In this document: one piece after another, positions 29,498-31,931 of the stretch
Layout: every line of letters begins with the position of its first letter
Numbering within the stretch: the first letter of the stretch is position 1
From: Hyella patelloides LEGE 07179
GTDB taxonomy: Bacteria; Cyanobacteriota; Cyanobacteriia; Cyanobacteriales; Xenococcaceae
DNA: 40,717 nt
Direction of reading: 5' to 3'
Assembly (NCBI RefSeq): GCF_900659865.1
Contig: NZ_LR213793.1
Location: 1 to 40,717, forward strand
Position numbers and translations under genes: made by a program
Notes under the pieces: generated by a model
What the model was told of the DNA's origin: nothing
Databases searched by the model: none
Seen by the model: only the letters and a program-made list of their open reading frames with translations

Positions 29498-30157
29498 TTA
29501 TTTCTGACCAGTTTGGGCTGCTACTTCATCAGCAAAATTAGTCTCTTCTTTCTCAATACCTTCACCCAAGATAAAGCGAGCAAAACGGCGTACCTGAATG
29601 TTTTCACCCAGAGCAGCAACAGTATTTGTTACTAACTCTTCTACTGTAATACTTTGGTCTTTAATGTAAGGTTGAGGCATCAAAGCTAGTTCATTGAGAC
29701 GCTTACCAATTCTACCTTCAACAATCTTTTCTTTGATGTTGTCGGGTTTACCTGCTAAATCATCTCGACCTTTTTCAATTTCTTTTTCTTTCGCCACAAT
29801 CTCTTCGGGAATATCTTCTACTCTGACATATTCGACGTTAGGACAAGCAGCGACTTGCATTGCCACATCGCGAACCAATTCCTTAAATTGATCTCCACGA
29901 GCCACAAAGTCAGTTTCGCAGTTAACTTCTACTAACACACCGATACGCCCACCAGTATGAATGTAGCTATCAACCAAACCTTCTGATGCTATTCGACCTG
30001 ATTTTTTCTCTGCCGAGATAGTACCTTTTTTCCTCAGCCACTCCATAGCTTTGGTAATATCTCCGTCATTTTCTGCAAGAGCTTTTTTGCAATCCATCAT
30101 CCCCGCACCAGTTTGAGTACGGAGTTCTTTGACTAATTTTGCTGATATTTGCGCCAT
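29498..30157 (-). CDS. tsf: Elongation factor Ts
   Basis: EF-Ts exchanges GDP for GTP on EF-Tu. The 219-residue protein has the N-terminal UBA-like domain (residues 1-45, with [16 protein letters not shown]), the core motif [12 protein letters not shown] near residue 80, and the C-terminal EF-Tu contact region. The shortened dimerisation part is typical of cyanobacterial and plastid EF-Ts compared with the 283-residue E. coli protein. It follows rpsB on the minus strand, the classical rpsB-tsf operon, across a 267-bp spacer that contains a long hairpin. Confidence 0.97.
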
Positions 30158-30424: not shown

Positions 30425-31378
30425 TTACTCTTCGCTATCTCCATCAGCAGTTTCTTCTACGGCTTCTACGGCTTCTGCTGCTTCTGCTACTTCTACGGCT
30501 TCTACGGCTTCTACGGCTTCTGCTGCTTCTGCTGCTTCTACGGCTTCTACGGCTTCTACGGCTTCTACAGCTTCTACGGCTTCTACAACTTCTACGGCTT
30601 CTGCTGCTTCTTCATCGTCATATTCTTCCGCATCGGGATATTCACCATCATAAATTCCCTCTTCAAACTCTTCGTAATCTTCTTGAGCAGCAGCTTCACC
30701 ATGACGACCTTCGTAAATAGCATCAGCTAACTTACCCACAATCAATTTGATGGAGCGAATAGCATCATCGTTAGCAGGAATATGGACATCTACTATGTCA
30801 GGGTCACAGTTAGTATCGAGAATAGATACTACGGGAATGTTTAGCTTCTGGCATTCAGAGATAGCATTGTGTTCTCTTTTTTGATCGACAATTACAACAA
30901 TATCGGGTACTTTACGCATGGTTTTGATACCACCGAGATATTTTTGCAATTTGCCCAACTCTCGACGCAACATAGAAGCTTCTTTTTTGGGTCTTTTATC
31001 TAAAGCACCACTTTCTTCTAGTCTCTCTAATTCTTTTAATCTTTCTACTCTGGTTCTAATAGTTTCCCAGTTAGTCAGCATTCCACCAAGCCATCTTTGA
31101 TTCACATAGTAAGAACCACAACGACTAGCTTCTTGAGCAATAATTCCTGCTGCTTGGCGTTTTGTACCAACAAAAAGTACTCTTCTACCTCGTTCAGAAG
31201 AGTTACGCATAAAATCATACGCTTCTTCCATTAACTGTGCAGTTTGCACCAAGTCAATAATATGAACGCCGTTTCTGGCTGTATAAATATACTGAGCCAT
31301 GCGGGGATTCCAACGACGGGTTTGGTGTCCAAAGTGAACACCAGATTCTAACAATTCTGCTAGTGATACTACTGGCAT
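30425..31378 (-). CDS. rpsB: Small ribosomal subunit protein uS2 with expanded repeat tail
   Basis: Ribosomal protein S2, needed for 30S subunit assembly and mRNA binding. Residues 1-226 are a normal S2 ([52 protein letters not shown]). After the usual end the protein continues with about 90 acidic residues: a [20 protein letters not shown] linker, then 17 tandem Val-Glu-Ala-like triplets and a DGDSEE end, giving 317 residues in all. Acidic C-terminal extensions of S2 are known in cyanobacteria, but this one is unusually regular. The ribosome site AAGGAG (31390-31395) lies 11 bp before the ATG, adjacent to a possible pseudoknot. It heads the rpsB-tsf operon. Confidence 0.97.
30458..30610. repeat. 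Seventeen tandem 9-bp units inside rpsB
   Basis: Exactly 153 bp made of the plus-strand unit CTTCTACGG and variants (CTTCTGCTG, CTTCTACAG) encode the Glu-Ala-Val-type triplets of the S2 tail on the minus strand. The regular nonamer structure allows in-frame expansion and contraction by slippage. Confidence 0.92.
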
Positions 31379-31395
31379 TTAATTTTTAACTCCTT

Positions 31396-31461
31396 TTCGG
31401 GTTAATCCTCCATTCAGGGACATTTTCTTGATTTCTGGGAAAACACCCGAATTCCTGAATG
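31396..31461 (-). promoter_or_regulatory. rpsB leader RNA element able to form a pseudoknot next to the ribosome site
   Basis: Read 5' to 3' on the minus strand: A = CATTCAGG (31461-31454), B = TTCGGGT (31451-31445), A' = CCTGAATG (31418-31411), B' = ACCCGAA (31402-31396). A pairs with A' over 8 bp and B with B' over 7 bp, giving an interlocked pseudoknot. B' ends directly before the AAGGAG ribosome site at 31395-31390. This is the expected layout for translational autoregulation by S2, but binding is inferred. Confidence 0.6.
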
Positions 31462-31931
31462 TGCGAATTTTGACAACCTTTCAAGTTTATCACTATTTAT
31501 TTAGATTTGGGATAGGGATTTTTGGCTTATGACCTTGAGACTTAGTTAATTAATTGAAATGATGAGGTGAAAATTTTTTGACAATACAAAAAAAATAAAA
31601 ATGCTTTTAGTTATTAATTTTTTGAGAGTTCAATCTATACAAATAATAAAATTAACTATTGTAATAATGGCGATAATTGTTATTCATTATTTTCTAGGAA
31701 ATTAGAACTTTTCCCCTATATTGATTGATTAATACCTAATTGTCATTTTAGCTAGGAAGCGATCGCTAAAGACATTTTTCAGATCTTCATAAATAATTTA
31801 TAGATGTTGCAATAGATTTTTGCACTTTTTAATATTACATTGTGAATAAAAAATATGTCTTAACACTTTTTTGCTAATATTTTTGTTTCGATCGTAATTA
31901 GAAACCGAAACTGATAGAACCTACAGGGTAG
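31462..31931. other. Divergent promoter region between rpsB and folD
   Basis: AT-rich spacer without genes. It must contain the rpsB promoter (minus) and the folD promoter (plus). A HIP1 octamer lies at about 31759. The folD start has only a weak upstream site (CAGGGTAG). Confidence 0.5.

Follow-up and report, generated by a model that had tools for sequence, protein, structure and literature searches.

A pseudoknot in the rpsB leader of Hyella patelloides belongs to the published rpsB motif and is a probable S2 operator

The window, that is, the whole stretch of 40,717 nucleotides from Hyella patelloides LEGE 07179 that was analysed, carries on its minus strand the gene for ribosomal protein S2 (rpsB), identified by its translation and, through tblastn, by its relatives. 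By S2 protein, the closest of these carry the labels Xenococcaceae and other Pleurocapsales. At its 3′ end (30454-30611), rpsB consists of a tandem repeat with a 9-bp unit, 17.6 copies and a higher unit of 45 bp, which encodes an acidic V-E-A-rich tail of S2. The gene downstream is taken to be tsf (EF-Ts), presumably part of the same operon. In E. coli (NC_000913), tsf lies downstream of rpsB as well, so that the gene order is the same as in the window. The leader in front of rpsB holds a promoter element and three stems, as follows.

31484..31492, minus strand: extended −10 promoter element TGATAAACT (TGnTAnnnT), from sequence and conservation
31454..31461, minus strand: stem A, 5′ strand, P1 of the rpsB motif, CATTCAGG, from sequence and covariation
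31445..31451, minus strand: stem B, 5′ strand, J2-3 half of the pseudoknot, TTCGGGT, from sequence and comparison of leaders
31439..31444, minus strand: stem C, 5′ strand, P3, GTTTTC, from pairing and alignment
31422..31427, minus strand: stem C, 3′ strand, P3, GAAAAT, from pairing and alignment
31411..31418, minus strand: stem A, 3′ strand, P1, CCTGAATG, from pairing and covariation
31403..31410, minus strand: A′-B′ loop GAGGATTA, which together with the last G of A′ forms the conserved GGAGG, from leader comparison
31396..31402, minus strand: stem B, 3′ strand, 3′ extension of the rpsB motif, ACCCGAA, from pairing and leader comparison
31390..31395, minus strand: ribosome-binding site AAGGAG, directly 3′ of stem B, from sequence
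30425..31378, minus strand: rpsB (ribosomal protein S2), ATG at 31378-31376, from translation and relatives by tblastn
29498..30157, minus strand: putative tsf (EF-Ts), downstream gene, presumably in the same operon, from translation

Stems A (8 bp) and B (7 bp) are perfect Watson–Crick helices that interlock in the order A-B-A′-B′ at 31461-31396 of the minus strand, and the last strand, B′ (31402-31396), adjoins AAGGAG (31395-31390). Both observations had been made in the initial annotation and were reproduced here. Between B and A′, a third stem, C (31444-31439 paired with 31427-31422), takes up the loop, which gives the full strand order A-B-C-C′-A′-B′; the initial annotation had missed this stem as well as the conserved GGAGG between A′ and B′. 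From the end of B′ (31396) to the rpsB ATG (31378) there are 17 nt, which places the element directly upstream of rpsB.

By shuffling, the pseudoknot of this single leader is moderately unusual. When the 101-nt leader was shuffled with its dinucleotides preserved, 114 of 20,000 shuffles gave perfect interlocked stems with 8 or more and 7 or more bp; for the AT-rich upstream region of 260 nt, 2,789 of 5,000 held an 8 + 7 bp interlocked pair. Since over half of the shuffles of this longer region hold such a pair, one sequence alone is weak evidence. The comparison across leaders was decisive and argues for a real structure common to cyanobacteria. In 151 of 151 cyanobacterial rpsB leaders, a stem A with 7 or more bp (counting G-U pairs) surrounds GGGT, and AACCC follows behind it; 30 of 15,100 shuffles showed this layout. 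These 151 leaders comprised the window, 80 tblastn loci, 50 loci among which the window recurred and a further 20 loci; 10 were duplicates, leaving 141 distinct leaders.

Covariation was assessed in an alignment of 70 leaders (A1), from which nine of the 78 distinct leaders (longer than 110 nt) and two duplicates were left out. In stem A, 99.3% of cells were paired and seven of the eight pairs had changed on both sides, while stem C showed 85.5% paired cells and both-side changes at three of six pairs. Stem B was paired in 99.0% of cells; five of its seven pairs were invariant and none had changed on both sides, so that within A1 it is conserved, not covarying. Sliding the partners by one column lowered the paired cells of the alignment from 95.2% to 59.2% or 51.2%. 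Three of five whole-structure measures lay above all of 500 shuffles, and the weak ones were the number of double-change pairs (reached by 16/500 shuffles) and the pair types (60/500). RNAalifold found stem A in A1 unaided and did not draw stem C; stem B is not drawable by this program. RNAfold, which cannot draw pseudoknots, paired B′ of a single leader with the stretch behind it, and this result was not used.

Compensation in stem B was observed in distant lineages. Pair 1 is A-U in two leaders (L049 and L053) and U-A in others, pair 2 is replaced by A-U in L117 and L119, and pair 3 by U-A in L115 and L116 with a mismatch at the neighbouring pair. L049 and L053 have 128 and 96 nt, respectively, between B and A′. 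The source of L049 is labelled Candidatus Gracilibacteria, a label that looks wrong because its S2 is 80% identical to that of the window. The initial annotation had proposed covariation in both stems as a check; this held strongly for stem A, while stem B turned out to be nearly invariant, with compensation only in a few distant lineages. The loss of either stem in relatives, which it had named as grounds for refutation, was not observed, as judged from the paired cells of both stems and from the layout in all 151 leaders.

The promoter is conserved as well. Of the 151 leaders, 147 have TGnTAnnnT within the 50 nt preceding stem A, compared to 5.9% of shuffled 50-mers, and the extended −10 lies 21-24 nt from stem A in 117/151 leaders and 22 nt from it in the window. 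A sigma-70 scan listed no minus-strand site, and the promoter evidence is this conserved TGnTAnnnT. From the element and its distance, transcription is expected to start near 31477, about 15 nt upstream of strand A, which supports the assignment of strand A to the predicted mRNA. A start downstream of 31454, which the initial annotation had considered fatal to its proposal, would be at odds with this prediction, the conserved −10 ending 22 nt upstream of strand A.

The initial annotation had further suggested a candidate new ribosomal-protein leader motif. This we rejected: the rpsB motif, including its pseudoknot, was described in 2009 by Meyer et al. (PMC2704228), who named as its holders most Alpha- and Gammaproteobacteria, a few other Proteobacteria, Cyanobacteria and some Firmicutes. 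According to their account, the motif sits directly upstream of rpsB, in a few cases upstream of tsf, and consists of a long P1 with covariation and a P3 of typically four or more pairs; P2 is absent or very short in Cyanobacteria, and J2-3 pairs with a 3′ extension of P1. The window element has the same position and the same parts (PMC2704228). Stem A, with its changes on both sides of seven of eight pairs among 70 leaders, corresponds to P1, and stem C, with six pairs in the window and 85.5% paired cells, to P3. Stem B (99.0% paired cells) represents the pseudoknot formed by J2-3. In keeping with the near absence of P2, A and B are separated by 0-3 nt in 80 of 81 leaders; the remaining one (L037), which was left unparsed, has a few more than 3. 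The elements differ in the pseudoknot helix, which is given as five base pairs outside Firmicutes (PMC2704228), whereas stem B of the window has 7 bp. Since Meyer et al. treat the leaders of Gammaproteobacteria and of Cyanobacteria as a single motif (PMC2704228), the window element is more than an analogue of the former. A single S2 leader fold is thereby confirmed for both Proteobacteria and Cyanobacteria.

At gathering scores, no Rfam family matched in the window. A permissive scan yielded a full-length, sub-threshold match to RF01815 ('rpsB') at 31465-31380 of the minus strand, which spans the whole element (24.6 bits, E 0.0047); from its name and layout, this family appears to have been built from the motif of Meyer et al. 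Because 24.6 bits is below the gathering cut-off of 40, we filed the element under the published motif rather than counting it as an RF01815 hit. Scanned at E ≤ 1, four (L038, L060, L003 and L026) of 13 other cyanobacterial loci matched RF01815 below the cut-off, and nine gave no match. Two other sub-threshold matches in the window, CRISPR-DR25 (E 0.21) and SNORD50 (E 5.8), were taken as chance.

Two related leaders deserve comparison. Voss et al. (2009, PMC2662882) listed a structured 5′ leader candidate of rps2 (cluster 394), with one sequence each from Synechocystis and Microcystis. It concerns the same gene as the window element, is a candidate only, and the word 'pseudoknot' is absent from the main text of that article. 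The E. coli rpsB leader (L081, NC_000913) is the t44/tff RNA (RF00127) and reads ACGTATC...GATACGT, then GGAGGCATAACCCC. Its order of P1, GGAGG and ACCC(C) is the same as in the window, whereas the structure line of RF00127 has no pseudoknot and this family gave no match up to E 10 in 31300-31600. On our reading of the E. coli sequence, there are two possible partners for ACCCC.

Three results of our analysis are new: nearly all sampled genomes of the class hold the motif, the public model fails to call it, and another lineage has a different leader. Genome-scale scans were run with stricter filters, at which weak matches are lost. Under these settings, a model built from the 70 leaders (R1) matched 96 of 244 genomes of the phylum, once each and all in the class of the window. 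Behind each of the 53 matches that were fetched and read lies the S2 gene. The class is represented by 114 genomes, 18 of which did not match R1; 17 of these have an rpsB hit, and all 17 leaders carried the layout on reading, while no S2 hit was found in the last one (G243). The pseudoknot leader is thus present in 113/114 sampled class genomes. With the same filters, RF01815 called none of the 244 phylum genomes above its cut-off and three at E ≤ 0.001, leaving the cyanobacterial rpsB leader unannotated. It called none of 14 control genomes either, with one (Caulobacter) at E ≤ 0.001, which indicates that the strictness of the model is general and not specific to cyanobacteria. A rebuilt RF01815 model would repair the missing annotation in the phylum.

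Outside the class, a free stem search revealed a P1 like that of the rpsB motif in members of five families (f29, f32, f33, f34 and f36; leaders L133, L139, L260-L264 and L270). This P1 begins with CGC, and GAGG, GCGGA or GACGA comes after it. One f34 leader (L267) was without such a P1, and for f31, f35, f37 and f38 the search gave no convincing stem. It also returned helices in the position of stem B, namely GGGGT/ACCCC (L262), GGGGGT/ACCCCC (L263) and GCAGT/ACTGC (L270); these are short and, being the best found by a free search, can be chance. Only these P1 and B helices were used from this search: of its 24 sequences, 12 yielded nothing, several (among them L140, L141, L266 and L081) yielded stems off the motif, and the known P1 of the E. 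coli leader (L081) was missed.

What the leader does is suggested by its counterpart in E. coli, where excess S2 represses rpsB–tsf translation through the leader (Aseev et al., as reviewed in PMC10931766). According to this review, S2 needs S1 for effective repression, the Shine–Dalgarno (SD) sequence and the start codon lie outside the S2 operator, and pseudoknots are high-affinity targets of S1. Autoregulation by S2 was shown in E. coli, for the same gene and from the same leader position as in the window (PMC10931766), and the likening to S2 autoregulation in enterobacteria in the initial annotation was therefore apt; our literature search found no cyanobacterial test of S2 autoregulation. 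We are highly confident in reading the feature as the cyanobacterial rpsB motif, an S2 leader whose pseudoknot ends on the SD and through which S2 would repress rpsB–tsf translation. By this analogy, the leader in the window is most likely the operator of that repression. P1 (stem A) encloses the hairpin P3 (stem C) without a P2, and the linker between A and C (strand B) pairs with the stretch just 3′ of P1. S2, perhaps together with S1, may bind and stabilise the cyanobacterial pseudoknot. The stabilised form would crowd the ribosome site, as B/B′ ends on the SD and can be extended into it in two leaders (L007 and L008). With the B/B′ helix beside or on AAGGAG and the GGAGG loop tied up, the 30S subunit might be kept from starting; as ribosome assembly lowers free S2, the leader would open and S2 and EF-Ts would be made.

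The GGAGG of the A′-B′ loop bears on this mechanism. It occurs in 131 of 142 distinct leaders, and 119 of the 142 have an SD-like word (GGAG, AGGA, GAGG or AAGG) behind B′. The 23 leaders without such a word behind B′ all keep the loop GGAGG, and their existence means that hiding of the SD cannot by itself explain the mechanism in every leader. Two of them are L049 and L053; the others are all 21 leaders read from the small-genome family f25 (L120-L131, L150, L151, L153-L155, L157, L160, L162 and L163). In these leaders, GGAGG may itself serve as the landing site, and the pseudoknot as a loader that S2 could lock. The conservation of GGAGG in leaders that have no SD near the start codon makes this mechanism testable.

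The same loop is the basis of an alternative, in which the pseudoknot is a constitutive ribosome-loading element whose GGAGG, complementary to the anti-Shine–Dalgarno sequence, docks the 30S subunit near the start codon. The frequency of GGAGG, its retention in every SD-less leader and the high affinity of S1 for pseudoknots (PMC10931766) speak for such a role; as S2 represses through the homologous leader in E. coli (PMC10931766), we consider it unlikely as the sole function. Loading and repression are compatible, so that loading may be part of the mechanism rather than its rival.

Less likely still is a leader that senses another ligand than S2, such as S1, EF-Ts or a small molecule. Effective repression by S2 in E. 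coli needs S1 (PMC10931766), and tsf is located in the same presumed operon, both of which would leave room for such a ligand. Against it stand the role of S2 as the regulator in E. coli (PMC10931766) and the single R1 match in each of 96 genomes, upstream of S2 in all 53 cases fetched. Most other leaders had been found through S2 itself. Chance complementarity of the two stems, or an operator acting at the DNA level in an AT-rich leader, has a negligible probability despite the many 260-nt shuffles with an interlocked pair, and is in effect refuted by the layout kept in register in 151/151 leaders and by the both-side changes at seven of eight stem A pairs, which are a mark of RNA pairing and not of a fixed DNA word.

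A family outside the photosynthetic class, f30 (probably Gastranaerophilaceae), has a different rpsB leader. It forms a three-way junction in which P1 has 12 bp, P2 is a short hairpin (TAGG/CCTA) and P3 varies. A model made from six of these leaders (R2) matched 83 of the 244 phylum genomes, once each, in 16 genera and exclusively in f30, for which the sample holds 106 genomes, 23 of them without a match. S2 is encoded behind all 83 loci (L164-L246, alignment A4). In the 83 leaders, 95.9% of cells were paired as against at most 48.3% after sliding, and P1 showed both-side changes at 11 of 12 pairs; the sequences had been fitted to R2, and the alignment thus leans towards the model. In an anchored check that made no use of the R2 alignment, 861 of 960 cells were paired in register compared to at most 481 in five other registers; three of the 83 leaders had no anchor, and L176 was anchored on its second GATAGG.

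None of the six founding loci matched an Rfam family above the cut-off, the best permissive match, in one of them, being freshwater-2 (E 0.39). Our literature search found no description of the f30 leader, which a survey of human-microbiome RNAs (PMC8040213) may hold. It is possible, at a little less than even chances in our estimation, that the S2 operator was swapped within the phylum while the control was kept, an ancient pseudoknot serving the photosynthetic cyanobacteria and apparently some outside families, the three-way junction serving f30 and yet other leaders serving some f30 genera. If S2 binds both leaders, one conserved protein would recognise two different folds. Turnover of the S2 leader seems to be rapid in f30. 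Two of its genera, g97 (L247-L252 and L277) and g101 (L256-L259, L283 and L284), have other rpsB leaders that match neither model and are similar to each other.
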